This document shows positions 5,857 to 29,705 of a stretch of 39,419 nucleotides of DNA, piece after piece; the stretch's first letter is position 1; each line of letters opens with the position of its first letter. Position numbers and translations under genes: made by a program. Source of the stretch: Prochlorococcus sp. AG-402-O21. Its GTDB lineage: Bacteria > Cyanobacteriota > Cyanobacteriia > PCC-6307 > Cyanobiaceae. Below the pieces are notes generated by a model that saw only the letters and a program-made list of their open reading frames with translations, was not told the DNA's origin and made no database searches. Location of the stretch: NCBI GenBank assembly GCA_003216375.1, contig QCIZ01000012.1, forward strand, positions 1 through 39,419. The letters are read 5' to 3'.

Positions 5857-7461
5857 ATGAATAATTCATCAAAAGAAGTTCTAAAGATAAATAAACTAAA
5901 TGCTATTTATCCAAATAGTACAACTTCCGTGTTGAGAGATTTAAATCTGAATATTAATCGTGGCGATAGGCTCGCATTAGTTGGTAGTTCGGGATGTGGT
6001 AAAAGTACTGTTGCTAAGGCTGTAATGCAGCTTCTTCCTAAAGGATGCTTTTGTGATGGTGAGATTGTTCTAAATGGAAAAAATGTATTAGATCTAGACA
6101 ATGTTGCTTTGCAAGCTATTCGAGGGAAAGAGGTTGGATTGATATTTCAGGATCCAATGTCACGTTTAAATCCTTTAATGACTGTTGGTGATCATTTGGT
6201 TGATACTTTTAAAGCTCATTACAACTCTGAACCAATTTACAACTTAGTAAAAAAAGCTAAAAACTTATTAGAAAAAGTTGGAATAGATCCTTTAAGATTT
6301 AATTCTTTTCCGCATGAATTTAGTGGAGGGATGCGACAACGTGTAGCAATTGCTTTGGCAATTTGTTTAAGACCTCCTTTGATAATTGCTGATGAACCTA
6401 CAACTAGCTTGGATACAATAGTTGCTGATCAGATCATGAGTGAATTAAGTTTACTTTGTGATGAGATTGGGACTGCTTTACTATTAATTAGTCATGATTT
6501 ATCTATGGTATATAAATGGTGCAATAAAATTGCAATACTTGATTATGGGCAAATCGTCGAATCTGGTAATATTAAAGATATTGTTGGTAATCCAAAAACT
6601 GAAATTGCTCAAAGATTAGTTAATTCAGGAAGAATTTTAGAGGGTTCTGAGAGAGAAATAATGAATAAAAGTACTGTATTATTAAGAGCGAATAGATTAC
6701 GTTGCTGGCATAATTTAGGCTTTTGGCCCTTTAATTCTTTTTGGTTGAAAGCTGTTAATGAAGTTACCTTTTCTCTGTATGAAGGCGAAACTCTTGGTAT
6801 CGTAGGGCCATCGGGATGTGGCAAGAGCACTCTATGTAGAGCGTTGACTGGTCTATTGCCTACGAGAGGTGGAAGTGTTTTTTTCCTTGGAGAGAATATT
6901 TCAACTATCAATAGGAAATCTTTAAAACAATTACGTAAGTATATTCAAATTATTTTTCAAGATCCTTCAGCTTCTTTGAATCCTAAGATGTCAGTAATGG
7001 ATGCAATTATAGATCCAATCCTTATCCATAAATTGTCAAGTAGATCTCATGCTAGGGAAAAAGCTCGTAATCTTTTACAACTAGTAGGCTTAACGCCTGC
7101 AGCAATGTATGAACAACGCTTACCTTCACAACTTTCAGGAGGACAACAGCAAAGAGTTGTTATCGCAAGAGCACTGGCACTTGCCCCAAAAATACTTATC
7201 TGTGATGAAAGTGTCAGTATGTTAGATGCAGAAATTCAAGCAGAAGTTTTGGAGTTGCTACGCTCGCTGCAAGAAAGATTAAAACTGTCCATACTATTCA
7301 TAACTCATGACTTAGCAGTTGCGGCAGGCTTTTGTCACAGAGTATTAGTGTTTGATAAGGGAAAAATTATCGAAGAGAATTCTGGTAAGAATTTGTTAAA
7401 TCATCCTCAAAAATACTTAACAAAAAAGATGGTTAAGGCATGTCCAAGACTTCCGAAATAA
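5857..7461 (+). CDS. Fused double-ATPase ABC transporter subunit (Opp/Dpp/nickel type)
   Basis: 534 residues containing two complete ABC ATPase domains in one chain, like YejF or a DppD-DppF fusion. Domain 1 has Walker A GSSGCGKST (43-51), a Q-loop at FQDP, signature FSGGMRQR (155-162) and Walker B LIIADEP (175-181), followed by an HD switch. Domain 2 has GPSGCGKST (317-325), LSGGQQQR (426-433) and ILICDESVS (447-455), followed by a THD switch near 484. All catalytic elements are present in both halves. Such proteins energise import of oligopeptides, nickel or related ligands, but no permease or binding-protein gene is adjacent, so the substrate is unknown. Its last 29 bases overlap the 3' end of the convergent pseudouridine synthase gene. 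Confidence 0.9.
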   Translation: MNNSSKEVLKINKLNAIYPNSTTSVLRDLNLNINRGDRLALVGSSGCGKSTVAKAVMQLLPKGCFCDGEIVLNGKNVLDLDNVALQAIRGKEVGLIFQDPMSRLNPLMTVGDHLVDTFKAHYNSEPIYNLVKKAKNLLEKVGIDPLRFNSFPHEFSGGMRQRVAIALAICLRPPLIIADEPTTSLDTIVADQIMSELSLLCDEIGTALLLISHDLSMVYKWCNKIAILDYGQIVESGNIKDIVGNPKTEIAQRLVNSGRILEGSEREIMNKSTVLLRANRLRCWHNLGFWPFNSFWLKAVNEVTFSLYEGETLGIVGPSGCGKSTLCRALTGLLPTRGGSVFFLGENISTINRKSLKQLRKYIQIIFQDPSASLNPKMSVMDAIIDPILIHKLSSRSHAREKARNLLQLVGLTPAAMYEQRLPSQLSGGQQQRVVIARALALAPKILICDESVSMLDAEIQAEVLELLRSLQERLKLSILFITHDLAVAAGFCHRVLVFDKGKIIEENSGKNLLNHPQKYLTKKMVKACPRLPK

Positions 7462-8425
7462 TATGATTTTTAGGTTGTAATACTTTTAAAAGTCTTTCAA
7501 AATCTTTAGGTAATGGAGCTGTGAATTTCATTTTCTCTAATGTTATGGGGTGTATTAAACCCAATTCAACTGCATGTAATGCTTGGCCACTAAGTTTAAT
7601 AGGCAATTTTTTACACCTACTGTAAGTTTGGTCTCCAATAATAGGGTGACCTATATGTGCACTATGAACACGAATTTGATGCGTCCTACCTGTATCAAGT
7701 TTGAATTTAAGTAGAGAAAAACTTCCTAGATTTTCAATTAATTTCCAATGTGTACAAGCATATCTACCAGATTCTTCATCAACTACAGCATATTTTTTTC
7801 TATCTTTTGGATGGCGGCCAATACACCCGACAATCATACCTTCATTGTCTTTAACAGCTCCATGAACAACAGCAATATAATTTCTTGAAGCTACTCTTTT
7901 TTGTATTTGAATTTGTAGTTTAACTAAGGCTTCTTGAGTCTTTGCTACGACGATGCATCCAGTTGTGTCTTTATCTAAGCGATGAACTATTCCAGGCCTC
8001 AATTTACCTCCGATGCCAGGTAAGTCTGGGCAATGATTGATTAATCCATTGACTAAAGTTCCTGACTTGTTCCCTGGCGCAGGATGCACTGCTATTCCTG
8101 CTGTTTTATTAATGACTATTAAATGATTATCTTCATATAAGATATCTAAATCAATTTCTTCCGGTTTTAAGTAAGGAAGAGGTTCAGGCGGCGGGACCCA
8201 AAGTTGAATTATGTCACCTGGCCTGACGGGAGTTTTTGCTTTTCCCGTTTTACCGTTTACTTTTGCGAAACCTGCTTCAATGAATTTTTGAATATGAGCT
8301 CTGCTTTGTTCAGCTCGTTGACTTACCAGCCATCTGTCAAGGCGCATAGGCAAAGGTTTCTTATATTCACCCTCAAATATTTCACCTGGTCCCTGCCCAA
8401 ATTGATGCCTGATTTCTTTATCCAT
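7433..8425 (-). CDS. rluD: RluA/RluD-family 23S rRNA pseudouridine synthase
   Basis: 330 residues. An N-terminal S4 RNA-binding domain (MRLDRWLVSQRAEQSRAHIQ, then VNGKTGKAKTPVRPGD) precedes the RluA catalytic domain. The catalytic motif is HRLDKDTTG, with the essential aspartate at residue 151. The nearby DNHLIVINKTAGIAVHP and GRTHQIRVH segments are standard for the family. The enzyme isomerises specific uridines to pseudouridine; RluD itself acts on helix 69 of 23S rRNA. The S4 domain plus the length favour RluD over RluA, but the exact target cannot be read from sequence. The gene shares one base with the stop of rbgA (TAATG) and so is probably translationally coupled to it. Its 3' end overlaps the convergent ABC gene. 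Confidence 0.88.
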   Translation of the reverse strand: MDKEIRHQFGQGPGEIFEGEYKKPLPMRLDRWLVSQRAEQSRAHIQKFIEAGFAKVNGKTGKAKTPVRPGDIIQLWVPPPEPLPYLKPEEIDLDILYEDNHLIVINKTAGIAVHPAPGNKSGTLVNGLINHCPDLPGIGGKLRPGIVHRLDKDTTGCIVVAKTQEALVKLQIQIQKRVASRNYIAVVHGAVKDNEGMIVGCIGRHPKDRKKYAVVDEESGRYACTHWKLIENLGSFSLLKFKLDTGRTHQIRVHSAHIGHPIIGDQTYSRCKKLPIKLSGQALHAVELGLIHPITLEKMKFTAPLPKDFERLLKVLQPKNHIISEVLDMP

Positions 8426-25727: not shown

Positions 25728-26684
25728 TTGGAAACCATTGAAACTGATGTTGTCATAGTTGGTGGTGGGCCTGCTGGTTGCAGTTGTGCGCTTTACACTT
25801 CCCGAGCAGACTTAAGAACAGTAATTCTTGATAAAAATCCTGATGTAGGTGCCCTAGCAATAACACATCAAATTGCCAATTATCCAGGTGTTTCGAGTGA
25901 AATGAGTGGTGAGGCTTTGTTGAAATTGATGAGAGATCAAGCTACTCAGTATGGGGCTGATTATCGCAGGGCTCAAGTTTTTGGTATTGATGCTGGTGGT
26001 GACTGGAAAACTATTTATACCCCTGAGGGGACTTTTAAAGCAAAGGCACTTGTCGTCGCTAGTGGTGCAATGGGAAGGCCAGCATCATTTAAAGGTGAGG
26101 CTGAGTTTTTGGGTAGAGGAGTAAGTTATTGCGCCACTTGTGATGGGGCTTTTTATAGAGATCGTGAAGTCGCAGTTGTTGGTATTAATAAAGAGGCAAT
26201 TGAAGAAGCAAATGTTCTTACAAAATTTGCTTCCAAAGTTCATTGGATAACATCCAATGATCCAAAATCAGATGATCATCATGCGCAAGATCTATTATTA
26301 AAACCAAATGTTAACCATTGGAGTAAGACGAGGTTAATGCAGATTGAAGGTAATGATTCAGGAGTAACAGGTATTAAGGTTAAGAACCGTTCAATTGATA
26401 CTCATCAAGATATAGCTCTTGAGGGTGTTTTTGTCTATATGAGCGGTTCAAAGCCTATTACAGACTTTCTTGGTGAACAGGTTGCTTTTAAGGAGGATGG
26501 TGGAGTCTTGGTGGATGACTTTATGTCCACAACAGTCGAAGGGGTTTGGGCAATTGGCGATATCAGAAATACTCCATTTAAACAAGCTGTTGTTGCAGCA
26601 TCAGATGGATGTATAGCCGCTATGGCAATAGATAGATATTTAAATAGTCGGAAATCAATTCGCGTCGATTGGGTTCATGCTTGA
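25728..26684 (+). CDS. trxB: Thioredoxin-reductase-like flavoprotein lacking NADPH motifs (DTR/DDOR-like)
   Basis: 318 residues with the low-Mr thioredoxin reductase layout. The N-terminal FAD loop is VVIVGGGPAG (8-17), the redox pair is CATC (135-138), and the C-terminal FAD segment is VWAIGDIRN. The central domain is abnormal for a TrxB. At the position of the NADPH dinucleotide loop GGGxxA it reads VGINKEAIEEA (151-161), and the downstream HRRxxFRA phosphate-binding motif is replaced by ITSNDPKSDD. Cyanobacterial enzymes of this type (deeply rooted TrxR, diflavin-linked disulfide oxidoreductase) are reported not to use NADPH, one of them carrying a second flavin. The short tail ends in an aromatic segment (DWVHA). 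The start is TTG: an in-frame stop precedes it and no ATG gives the FAD loop. The stop is 20 bases from the convergent sbtB. Confidence 0.88.
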   Translation: METIETDVVIVGGGPAGCSCALYTSRADLRTVILDKNPDVGALAITHQIANYPGVSSEMSGEALLKLMRDQATQYGADYRRAQVFGIDAGGDWKTIYTPEGTFKAKALVVASGAMGRPASFKGEAEFLGRGVSYCATCDGAFYRDREVAVVGINKEAIEEANVLTKFASKVHWITSNDPKSDDHHAQDLLLKPNVNHWSKTRLMQIEGNDSGVTGIKVKNRSIDTHQDIALEGVFVYMSGSKPITDFLGEQVAFKEDGGVLVDDFMSTTVEGVWAIGDIRNTPFKQAVVAASDGCIAAMAIDRYLNSRKSIRVDWVHA

Positions 26685-26704: not shown

Positions 26705-26986
26705 TCAAAGAGGAATTGCTTCAGAAACATAGGCAACACCACCGTAGTAGCTAAGCACAGTTTTTATATTATCTCTTATCTTGTCGATTACCTCTTGCTC
26801 ACAAAAAATAATCACGTGTGCATTTGATCCAAATCCAGTGAATTCCATGTCTTCGGTGACAATTCTTTCTGGACCTCTTCCAGTAGCATGTTTCATAACC
26901 GTATAACCAGGAACGTCAGCTTTTTCTAATGCTGATAGAACATCATCTAGTTCTCTTTCACTAAAAATCAAGTCAAGTCTTTTCAT
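26705..26986 (-). CDS. sbtB: SbtB-like PII-family regulator of bicarbonate uptake
   Basis: 93 residues with a PII-like ferredoxin fold. The first strand is MKRLDLIFSERELDDVLSAL, followed by a helix and PGYTVMKHATGRGPERI, which aligns with the GYTV-x-GGKGSRN segment of SbtB. The ending YYGGVAYVSEAIPL matches the final strand. SbtB proteins form trimers that bind adenine nucleotides including cAMP and control the bicarbonate transporter SbtA. The assignment is reinforced by the gene lying 9 bases downstream of sbtA. The protein stops at the final beta strand and lacks the C-terminal CGPxGC redox loop seen in beta-cyanobacterial SbtB. The start is ATG. Confidence 0.88.
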   Translation of the reverse strand: MKRLDLIFSERELDDVLSALEKADVPGYTVMKHATGRGPERIVTEDMEFTGFGSNAHVIIFCEQEVIDKIRDNIKTVLSYYGGVAYVSEAIPL

Positions 26987-26995
26987 GAAAATGAG

Positions 26996-27991
26996 TTATC
27001 CAATTGATGGGATCATTGTGTTTACTAAGCCCATATATACTGGTATCCCTATGATTATGTTGAAAGGAAAGGTTAATCCAAGAGTGGTCGAAATGTAATA
27101 ACTAGGTCGTGCTTCAGGAACAGTCATTCTCATTGCTGTTGGTACAGCTAAGTATGAAGCACTAGCGCAGAGAACTACAAATAACAGAGCATTGCCTGGA
27201 TCTAAATTTAGAAATCTAGCTACTATTGATCCGAAAATCGCATTAACTATAGGCATGAATATTGAAAACAAAATGAGAAAGGCACCAGTCTTGTTTAGAC
27301 GAGCAAGACGTTGAGCAGCCACAATACCCATGTCAAGAAGGAAAAAGCATTCTGCGCCATAGAACAATTCAGCTGTGAAGGGTTCCATTTTTTTTATGTC
27401 AGATGGGTCAATCGCGGATGTTAAAAAACCTATTAAAAGGCTTCCGAGCAATAAATAGACAGAACCATTTAACATCGACTCATGCAAAATTGATCCCCAT
27501 TTCATTTTTCTTTTGATGGGCCTATCTTTGGGGGCTCCAAATTTGACTAAGAGAAGACCAATTATTATTGCTGGAGACTCCATTAGTGCTAAAGCTGCAA
27601 CCATAAAACCATCAAAGGGTATATTTTGACTTTCTAGAAAACTTTCAGCAGTAATAAATGTCACTGCACTTATTGATCCATATGCTGCTGATATTGCTGC
27701 TGCATTAAAAACATCGAATTTAAATCTCAGTACAAAAAAGCAAATAAGTGGGATTAGTAGTGACATTAATATTGCTGCTATCACAGTTGGAAGAACTGGA
27801 TAACCAAAGCCACTTTTTTGAAGCTCAATTCCGCCTCTGAATCCTATTGCAAGTAAAAGATATAAAGAAAATAATTTTGGTAGGGGCGCAGGAATCTCAA
27901 AATCAGACTTTAATGCATATGCAATTGCCCCCAAAAAGAAAAATAGTATTGGGGGACTTAGAGCATTTTGAATGAATAGGTTTTGTCCCAT
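26996..27991 (-). CDS. sbtA: SbtA-type sodium-dependent bicarbonate transporter
   Basis: 331 residues, strongly hydrophobic, with about ten predicted membrane spans and an inverted-repeat look. The family segments PILFFFLGAIAYALKSDFEIP and YLLLAIGFRGGIELQKSG near the N-terminus are characteristic of SbtA. SbtA is a sodium/bicarbonate symporter in the plasma membrane that raises cytosolic bicarbonate for carboxysomes. The protein is somewhat shorter than the beta-cyanobacterial SbtA I know (about 370 residues), mainly in the cytoplasmic loop around PKDRPIKRKMKWGS. The start is the ATG at 27991. It follows the bicA-like gene by 46 bases and precedes sbtB by 9, giving an apparent three-gene carbon-uptake operon. 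Confidence 0.9.
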   Translation of the reverse strand: MGQNLFIQNALSPPILFFFLGAIAYALKSDFEIPAPLPKLFSLYLLLAIGFRGGIELQKSGFGYPVLPTVIAAILMSLLIPLICFFVLRFKFDVFNAAAISAAYGSISAVTFITAESFLESQNIPFDGFMVAALALMESPAIIIGLLLVKFGAPKDRPIKRKMKWGSILHESMLNGSVYLLLGSLLIGFLTSAIDPSDIKKMEPFTAELFYGAECFFLLDMGIVAAQRLARLNKTGAFLILFSIFMPIVNAIFGSIVARFLNLDPGNALLFVVLCASASYLAVPTAMRMTVPEARPSYYISTTLGLTFPFNIIIGIPVYMGLVNTMIPSIG

Positions 27992-28037: not shown

Positions 28038-29705
28038 TCAGCTATTTAGGCTGTCAATTGCAGCTGTGAGCGCTTCTTTTCTTGTACCAATTACATCGAC
28101 TCCAAATTTAGCAAGTCTGTCTTTTACTCTTCCAGTTGCACCAGCTACATATGCTTTCCTTGAGTTGTTTAGCGCTTCCTGAACCATATCTTCTATTGCT
28201 AGGGTTGCAGTTACTCCAAGCCTAGGAACATCAGTTATGTCAAGTATTAGAACTTTATAGTTTCTTATAAGCATCATTCTTTCAGTAATTCCTTTTGCTG
28301 CTCCAAAACTAAGAGGCCCTTTCAATCTAAATAGCATTACTTCTCCAGCACAACGATCTAATAGTGCTTTTTCATCTGAGGGGAGTTGTGCATTTGCTGC
28401 AGTGTTATTGGACGTTGAATCCAATGGGTTGTCAGCTTCCATCCCCTCCAATTGTGTCTCTGTAATGGAATCTATCGTGAGCATATTTGCTATGAATACA
28501 CCAACTAGTACAGCCCATATCAAGTCCCAGAAAACTGTCATCAAGAGGACTCCATACATCACACTTGCGGTTTTAAGTGAAAGTCTATGAGCTCTTAATA
28601 AAAATCCCCAATCAATAATGTCTAAGCCAACTTTTATTAGAATCCCCGCAAGAAGTGCTGTAGGTATCTGAGCGGCTAGGGGACCAGCACCAACTAGAAC
28701 TAATAGCAATACAACTGAATGAACCATCCCTGAAATTGGTGTGGAACCTCCAGATTTGACATTTATTACTGTCCTCATGGTTGCTCCTGCTCCAGGCAAA
28801 CCTGTAAAAATTCCAGCTACTGCATTCCCAATACCTTGTCCAATTAGTTCTCTATCAGAATTGTGCCTGGTTTGAGAAATATTATCGGCGACAAGAGATG
28901 TAAGAAGAGAGTCAATAGCGCCAAGAACAGCAAGGACTAGTCCGGCTTTAAGAATTATTGGGAAGAAATTGTCAAAGCTTGGATCTGGGAGACTTAAAGA
29001 AAGACCACCCTCTGGTATTGCGCCTATTCGATCTATCGAACTATCGCCAAAAAGAAGAATTGATAAAGGAGTTACTATTAATAATGCTAAAAGAGGAGAC
29101 GGGACCCATTGACTGATTTTGCGTGGAGTCAGAAACACTATCGCAAGTGTCATTACTGCAACTGCTATTGCAGCCCCATTGGGTTCGAAATTGTTAACTA
29201 AAGTTGAAAGAGACTCTAATACTCCTCCTCGAGTAGATATCCCAAGCAAAGGACCTATTTGAAGAGTAATTATGATTACTCCTATTCCAGACATAAAGCC
29301 TGAAACGACTGAGTATGGAACAAGTGTGATGTATTTACCCAGCCTTAGTAGGCCAAATAAAATTTGAAATAATCCTCCAATAACAACTGCAGCCATTACT
29401 AAAGGAAGAATTTCGCCAGCAGACAAATCTCTAGGTACTCCTACAGCAGCCAGGCTCGCAACTACTCCAGCAACTGTTACGCTCATCGGCCCAGTAGGAC
29501 CACTTACCTGAGCAGGAGTTCCTCCAAACAACGCAGCGAGGAATCCAACTACGACTGCTCCATAAAGGCCATAAATAGCGCCTCCAGGGCCAAGTGCCGC
29601 ATTTCCAAACGCTAAAGCTAGTGGTAGGGCTACAACCGCGGCAGTCAAGCCGCCTAATACATCACCTCTAATATTTTTTAGGTGAAAGCCATTAATTAAC
29701 GCCAA
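28038..29705 (-). CDS. SulP-family anion transporter, BicA-like bicarbonate permease with STAS domain
   Basis: 555 residues. Roughly residues 1-420 form the SulP membrane domain (12-14 spans) with NIRGDVLGGLTAAVVALPLALAFG, the substrate-site loop SGPTGPM (68-74) and the segment SLLTSLVADNISQTRHNSDRELIGQG. These closely resemble BicA, a low-affinity high-flux sodium/bicarbonate symporter. The C-terminal 108 residues are a STAS domain (LDITDVPRLGVTATLA). Sulfate or another anion is possible, since SulP substrates cannot be read with certainty, but the location directly upstream of sbtA-sbtB argues for bicarbonate. The start is TTG with an excellent AAGGAGA ribosome site 5 bases upstream. No in-frame ATG precedes the conserved N-terminus. 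Confidence 0.87.
   Translation of the reverse strand: MALINGFHLKNIRGDVLGGLTAAVVALPLALAFGNAALGPGGAIYGLYGAVVVGFLAALFGGTPAQVSGPTGPMSVTVAGVVASLAAVGVPRDLSAGEILPLVMAAVVIGGLFQILFGLLRLGKYITLVPYSVVSGFMSGIGVIIITLQIGPLLGISTRGGVLESLSTLVNNFEPNGAAIAVAVMTLAIVFLTPRKISQWVPSPLLALLIVTPLSILLFGDSSIDRIGAIPEGGLSLSLPDPSFDNFFPIILKAGLVLAVLGAIDSLLTSLVADNISQTRHNSDRELIGQGIGNAVAGIFTGLPGAGATMRTVINVKSGGSTPISGMVHSVVLLLVLVGAGPLAAQIPTALLAGILIKVGLDIIDWGFLLRAHRLSLKTASVMYGVLLMTVFWDLIWAVLVGVFIANMLTIDSITETQLEGMEADNPLDSTSNNTAANAQLPSDEKALLDRCAGEVMLFRLKGPLSFGAAKGITERMMLIRNYKVLILDITDVPRLGVTATLAIEDMVQEALNNSRKAYVAGATGRVKDRLAKFGVDVIGTRKEALTAAIDSLNS

Follow-up and report, generated by a model that had tools for sequence, protein, structure and literature searches.

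The window analysed here is the whole 39,419-nucleotide stretch of a contig from Prochlorococcus sp. AG-402-O21, whose genome of 1.76 Mb is 97% complete. The nearest named relatives, at 98-99% protein identity, are Prochlorococcus sp. AG-series genomes (80 of 102 relatives kept). The features of interest are listed below.

25728..26684, plus strand: predicted gene for FFTR (ferredoxin-dependent flavin thioredoxin reductase); TTG start, 318 aa, zero internal stops.
25761..25778, plus strand: GGGPAG FAD-binding loop, residues 12-17, from motif reading and alignment.
26130..26141, plus strand: CATC redox disulfide, C135 and C138, numbered as in Gloeobacter FFTR.
26181..26198, plus strand: GINKEA, residues 152-157, the FFTR form GxNxEA replacing the NADPH loop GxGxxA.
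26247..26270, plus strand: ITSNDPKS, residues 174-181, at the place of the 2'-phosphate motif HRRxxFRA.
26670..26672, plus strand: W315, the C-terminal tryptophan of DWxH, with a role known from Gloeobacter FFTR.
26705..26986, minus strand: sbtB, a P-II-like regulator, tail-to-tail with FFTR and lacking a C-terminal cysteine pair.
26996..27991, minus strand: sbtA, a Na+/bicarbonate transporter (Pfam Sbt_1).
28038..29705, minus strand: bicA, a SulP-type transporter with a STAS domain (Pfam Sulfate_transp and STAS).

From this point on, Prochlorococcus-type refers to the 66 loci L003-L068, of which 63 are titled Prochlorococcus and three cyanobacterium, Prochlorococcaceae or Synechococcaceae. 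The TTG start is credible because the aligned codon is TTG or GTG in all 66 of these loci (TTG in 62, GTG in four, ATG in none); a non-ATG start has perhaps been retained there for weak translation. The product is a TrxB-fold flavoprotein with a degenerate second nucleotide loop. As the first-pass annotation had it, the GGGPAG loop (residues 12-17) and the CATC pair (residues 135-138 of the 318-aa frame) are conserved, and VGINKEA (151-157) and ITSNDPKS (174-181) stand where TrxB has GxGxxA and HRRxxFRA. Our alignment comprises 104 rows, namely the window protein, the Gloeobacter enzyme and ORFs from 102 loci (99 rows are distinct, and L001 is the window itself). CATC occurs in 104/104 rows, as do G152, N154 and E156, with A157 in 103. 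D314, W315 and H317 are also present throughout, W315 being the residue predicted to stack on FAD. GGGPAG is found in 101 rows, the remaining three being gaps from partial genes at contig ends. In the Trx-binding GR/KG motif, G129 and G131 are present in 104/104 rows and position 130 is Arg in 93 and Lys in 11. The pair F142-Y143, which may or may not correspond to the published Trx-binding FF, occurs in both the window protein and the Gloeobacter chain.

A phmmer search of the PDB returns Gloeobacter violaceus 5J60/6XTF as the best match (481.9 bits, E 6.9e-144), gapless over residues 1-317 and with 66.9% identity. The next-best matches after FFTR are TrxBs, at 193.8 bits and lower. The protein scores 296.6 bits against NCBIfam TRX_reduct, below the cut-off of 343.45, and both NTR (TrxB) signatures, GxGxxA and HRRxxFRA, are missing from it. 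Bacterial TrxB and cyanobacterial NTRC share its fold, CxxC and FAD loop but differ from FFTR in having a GGGDSA NADPH loop and no DWxH tail. With the Gloeobacter FFTR, by contrast, it shares C135, C138, W315, GxNxEA and the Trx-binding GRG; the biochemistry is known in Gloeobacter, whereas the ortholog in the window, from a Prochlorococcus host, is known from sequence. We take 6GNA, 6GNB and 6GND to be Clostridium FFTR structures. Those enzymes are likewise ferredoxin-dependent, with NADPH use reported absent, but are shorter (288-294 aa) and reach just 100.8-117.7 bits against the window protein; 6GNC is CaFFTR2 (PMC8469568). A closer counterpart is the FFTR of Prochlorococcus marinus SS120 (PrFFTR in the Figure 3 legend of PMC9025218), of the same family and genus and presumably orthologous. 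The gene thus very probably codes for the iron-free Prochlorococcus thioredoxin reductase FFTR, an enzyme formerly called DTR whose renaming is reported in the accessible part of PMC9025218. It is an ordinary member of that published family, and its explanation is already known; in light of the FFTR/DTR literature, the main point of the first-pass annotation, a thioredoxin-reductase-like protein stripped of its NADPH motif, is correct and already explained.

The first-pass annotation had likened the protein to DTR and DDOR together and, through DDOR, hinted at a second flavin. DDOR (Gll2934 and Slr0600; structures 5N0J/5ODE and 5JRI/5K0A) does have CxxC and the first FAD loop and, like the window protein, lacks the NADPH motif. 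The loss of the NADPH motif is upheld, and so is the likeness to DTR, but membership in DDOR is rejected because its structures reach only 61.7 bits (5N0J/5ODE) and 53.0 bits (5JRI/5K0A) by phmmer against the 481.9 bits of FFTR. DDOR differs further in its second FAD and in the Trx-binding GR/KG motif, which the available text of PMC9025218 reports as missing there and which is kept in 104/104 FFTR rows; DDOR itself is reported by the same text as missing from Prochlorococcus. Since the DDOR likeness fails, there is no sign of a second flavin in the window protein, and the idea that it is a DDOR with two FADs per subunit, perhaps glutathione-linked, deserves practically no credence.

The NADPH loop can be compared directly with that of NTRC-type proteins, for which we used the NTRC of the window's own genome, where the Trx domain was profile-checked, and ORFs of 11 other genomes. 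GGGDSA occurs in all 13 of these ORF rows (12 genes, one represented twice), at the place of GxNxEA in FFTR and with Gly at the position of N154. The invariance of GxNxEA against GGGDSA in NTRC implies that the change is non-random and is now a conserved family loop. With the loop altered in this way and the arginines for the 2'-phosphate gone, NADPH is not expected to act, and the earlier caution that an NADPH donor cannot be assumed is borne out by N154 in 104/104 FFTR rows versus GGGDSA in 13/13 NTRC-type rows. The motif VxxxHRRDxxRA is reported missing in GvDTR (PMC5627308, from the part available). Gloeobacter FFTR is described, in the available text of PMC12796991, as not using NADPH and as having potentials of -448 mV for FAD and -356 mV for the disulfide; the authors hold that the FAD potential accounts for its ferredoxin preference. 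An enzyme still using NADPH through an altered pocket would fit the NADPH-type TrxB fold and the 28-36% identity to NTRC and TrxB, but N154 and E156 are fixed in FFTR while NTRC-type ORFs of the same genomes keep GGGDSA; given the altered loop and the published potentials, we reject residual NADPH use as very improbable. An AlphaFold model of the window protein has pLDDT 71.5 and pTM 0.59, with residues 241-268, 278-290 and 312-318 below 50. Foldseek places the 6XTF and 5J60 chains at ranks 1-5, with a TM to 6XTF of just 0.49. At such low confidence the model speaks neither for nor against an NADPH pocket.

The electron donor in picocyanobacteria had been called an open question, a view at odds with published texts that assign the role to ferredoxin. 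According to the accessible part of PMC12796991, Gloeobacter and Prochlorococcus depend on FFTR with ferredoxin as donor, 6XTF is the Gloeobacter FFTR complexed with ferredoxin 1, and the C-terminal tryptophan of each Gloeobacter subunit packs against the FAD bound by the other. The published texts on FFTR, in the portions available, contain no assay of any Prochlorococcus FFTR. From the Gloeobacter biochemistry we infer that ferredoxin is the donor of the window FFTR. By homology, and following the cycle proposed for Gloeobacter, two reduced ferredoxins would, one after the other, each pass one electron to FAD. The W315 tail of the partner subunit, acting as a lid, would move off the flavin, and the CATC domain would rotate in and have its disulfide reduced. 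It would then swing back and pass the dithiol to TrxA, NADPH taking no part. Presumably, FFTR serves through this cycle as a light-linked replacement of FTR.

Gene content is in keeping with such a replacement. Neither the catalytic nor the variable FTR subunit has a match in the window's own genome (97% complete), a Synechococcus elongatus control being positive for both. The sole other TrxB-like match there is NTRC, in a 458-aa open frame that includes a Trx domain, so the genome has a second thioredoxin-reductase-like protein besides FFTR, a point that counts against the main reading; SS120 likewise has a named FFTR and NTRC (PMC9025218, available text). The genome also contains a WCGPC thioredoxin in a 108-aa open frame, four matches to the Fer2 domain, of which the best carries CRSGACSSC, and one flavodoxin. 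Among 400 genomes of the family, FFTR is present in 201, as counted at E <= 1e-100 (short fragments may escape; the partial genes at contig ends in G294, G311 and G036 are counted as positive), and FTR in 200, as judged by the catalytic subunit (the variable subunit was looked for in eleven genomes, the window's own among them). The two are complementary, with FFTR only in 171, FTR only in 170, both in 30 and neither in 29, although such genome counts are not independent events. All but two (G049 and G395) of the 29 genomes with neither system are less than 90% complete, and a recheck of the 29 at E <= 0.001 gives matches in 20 of them, all either of NTRC size or 34-36 residues long. Across the phylum, FFTR occurs in 41 of 386 genomes (E <= 1e-100), three of them outside the family.

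All 30 genomes with both systems fall in genera g5, g35 and g25. These and g26 will be called Synechococcus-type, a label inferred from family, FTR content and place in the tree; the 161 FFTR genomes outside the four genera are, among the 400, the Prochlorococcus-type. In the available text of PMC9025218, the Prochlorococcus genomes analysed have FFTR and lack FTR and DDOR, and every Synechococcus studied has FTR; PMC2441476, also from partial text, gives ftrC/ftrV as Synechococcus-specific relative to Prochlorococcus. Three near-complete genomes that are not Prochlorococcus-type, G271, G283 and G025 (L154, L153 and L152), carry FFTR without either FTR subunit. Since all studied Synechococcus are reported in that text of PMC9025218 to have FTR, these would be further FTR losses, apparently separate from that of Prochlorococcus. 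G054 (L100/L151/L176), a 98%-complete single contig of 3.0 Mb, has a Prochlorococcus-type FFTR at 79%, the outermost row of that clade; it has no FTR and no flavodoxin (among the matches listed), and the genes that adjoin FFTR in Prochlorococcus are all missing from 18 kb around it.

FFTR ends at 26684 and the 3' end of sbtB lies at 26705, which agrees with the 20 bases previously given as the distance to the bicarbonate genes. Because these genes lie on the minus strand, the arrangement is tail-to-tail and not one of co-transcription. The FFTR-sbtB pair is found in 59 of the 66 Prochlorococcus-type loci, and sbtB, sbtA and bicA are all present in 55 of the 61 with 4.5 kb of downstream DNA. 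In the other seven of the 66 (L028, L029, L040, L041, L042, L045 and L048), FFTR does not adjoin sbtB; in L028 it is followed instead by a ThyX-like and a DnaJ-like ORF, both named from ORF reading. The maintenance of the pair might suggest a role for FFTR in bicarbonate uptake, through thioredoxin-mediated reduction of SbtB, SbtA or BicA, and Synechocystis offers a precedent, as TrxA reduces the SbtB R-loop there (PMC10991534, available text, which reports the R-loop in about half of cyanobacterial SbtBs). However, a cysteine pair in the last 20 residues of SbtB is found in 0/59 Prochlorococcus-type loci (SbtB of 93-94 aa, from the match), so the known TrxA-SbtB route is absent here, and redox control of the neighbouring SbtB is rejected. 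The window proteins also have few cysteines (one each in SbtB and BicA, three in SbtA), and no redox partner is visible in the neighbourhood conserved in 59/66 loci. Furthermore, the other FFTR flank (ABC1 kinase, enolase) is kept in 46/55, indicating that much of the nearness to sbtB is general synteny, and none of 14 distant loci has bicarbonate genes beside FFTR. A functional tie to bicarbonate uptake is accordingly improbable.

A different neighbour appears outside the Prochlorococcus type. In all 40 FFTR genomes of g5, g35, g25 and g26, whose FFTR is 52-66% identical to that of the window, FFTR and a flavodoxin gene stand tail-to-tail, their matches 46-111 bp apart (loci L152-L166 and L177-L201; for instance L153:5972-6478 and 6533-7492, or L160:5743-6702 and 6765-7274). 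An isiC-like alpha/beta-hydrolase gene lies directly upstream of FFTR on the same strand in 39 of the 40. An IsiA-like antenna match occurs in 15 and bicA in eight of these stretches, which were fetched at 4-14 kb. Neighbour families were checked with Pfam and NCBIfam on samples of the 40 loci, the IsiA-like label resting on NCBIfam TIGR03041 (an antenna family; two loci) and on reading. This FFTR-flavodoxin-hydrolase cluster has the make-up of an iron-stress (isi) locus. FFTR identity among 15 paired loci has a median of 66% and a minimum of 56%, which indicates that the pair has been held over a long divergence. The flavodoxin type concerned, at 72-100%, occurs in exactly the 40 paired genomes of the 400 (top of the matches listed). 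Neither the window nor any of the 66 Prochlorococcus-type loci has flavodoxin or hydrolase near FFTR. Among 17 distant cyanobacterial loci, flavodoxin, hydrolase and antenna genes all lie near FFTR in Oscillatoria CS-180 (L072) and Nodosilinea (L080), Acaryochloris (L076) shows the hydrolase and antenna genes without flavodoxin, and the other 14 have no isi genes near FFTR within the stretches examined. According to the available text of PMC2441476, just four marine Synechococcus strains have isiA and isiB, and the two genes sit at separate places. In Trichodesmium, added iron is reported to raise FTR and lower isiB (PMC12090762, available text). No report of FFTR beside flavodoxin was found in open-licence papers, a set without Buey et al. 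2021, and the linkage may be new to the literature. The most divergent FFTRs, L163 and L164 (G169 and G156), are 51-52% identical to that of the window, have A157 replaced by Ser and belong to genomes that retain FTR.

Fur boxes were scored against the E. coli consensus. In the region preceding the hydrolase gene, L153 and L154 reach 14/19 (equalled by 3 and 2 of 200 shuffles) and L165 13/19 (13/200), with L160, L163 and L166 ordinary. Scores upstream of five IsiA-like genes are ordinary, and the best box upstream of the window gene, 11/19, is equalled by 285/300 shuffles. These scans are uninformative. A promoter and terminator scan likewise gave nothing exceeding shuffles.

The window FFTR is 72-73% identical to the Pleurocapsa-type enzyme and 51-64% to the Synechococcus-type (15 loci), which had suggested horizontal transfer. 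The tree, which took in 15 of the 40 flavodoxin-paired loci, supports the two groups themselves at 97/89 and 100/100 and joins Prochlorococcus-type and Synechococcus-type FFTR weakly (84/74), with a long Synechococcus-type stem. Because the clades are joined and the stem is long, fast evolution suffices and transfer need not be invoked; shared descent of the two groups fits the tree, with weak support at the branch that joins them. Viral contigs contain four matching loci at 34-36%, and phage records number 80, all below 60% identity (five of the 80 listed). The FFTR of L081, from a MAG named Aphanocapsa lilacina, adjoins Gloeobacter violaceus in the tree with a branch length of almost nil; the bin is probably misnamed or contaminated.

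The linkage makes flavodoxin plausible as a second, iron-free donor. Any flavodoxin (E <= 1e-20) is found, among the matches listed, in 178 of the 201 FFTR genomes versus 21 of the 170 FTR-only genomes. Synechococcus trxB, isiB and pcbA transcripts all rise under an iron chelator at sea (PMC9723758, whose available text leaves unspecified whether trxB is FFTR). These observations, together with the 40/40 pairing, a flavodoxin type seen nowhere else in the 400 genomes and adjacency in two of the 17 distant loci, favour FFTR with flavodoxin as a main physiological donor under iron shortage. Against this, the two genes are apart in Prochlorococcus (0/66 loci paired) and 15 of the 17 distant loci are without flavodoxin. 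Flavodoxin is also without a match in 23 of the 201 FFTR genomes, five of which are at least 90% complete (G026, G054, G248, G282 and G396), all among the matches listed, which implies that it is not an obligatory partner of FFTR. Gene nearness is no proof of electron transfer; Gloeobacter FFTR has been shown with ferredoxin (PMC12796991, available text), and no flavodoxin-FFTR assay was found in published texts. The flavodoxin-less genomes, and the lack of isi genes at another three distant loci, lower the odds of the flavodoxin readings, and a main role for flavodoxin under iron shortage, while possible, is on balance doubtful.

We tentatively propose, with confidence a little short of even, that FFTR is a long-kept gene of the isi locus with flavodoxin as physiological donor, a backup to FTR in the Synechococcus-type and the standing system where FTR has been lost. 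Electrons would then run from photosystem I through flavodoxin and FFTR to thioredoxin with no iron required beyond photosystem I. In Synechococcus-type cells FFTR would back up the iron-sulfur FTR at low iron; Prochlorococcus, and independently a few Synechococcus-type lineages, would have lost FTR, with FFTR becoming the standing system.

FFTR connects thiol regulation with light in phototrophs that are among the most abundant, and its presence in place of the iron-sulfur FTR has previously been interpreted as a way of saving iron. With the flavodoxin linkage that interpretation becomes concrete and testable in terms of the donor, the regulon and the kind of strain.
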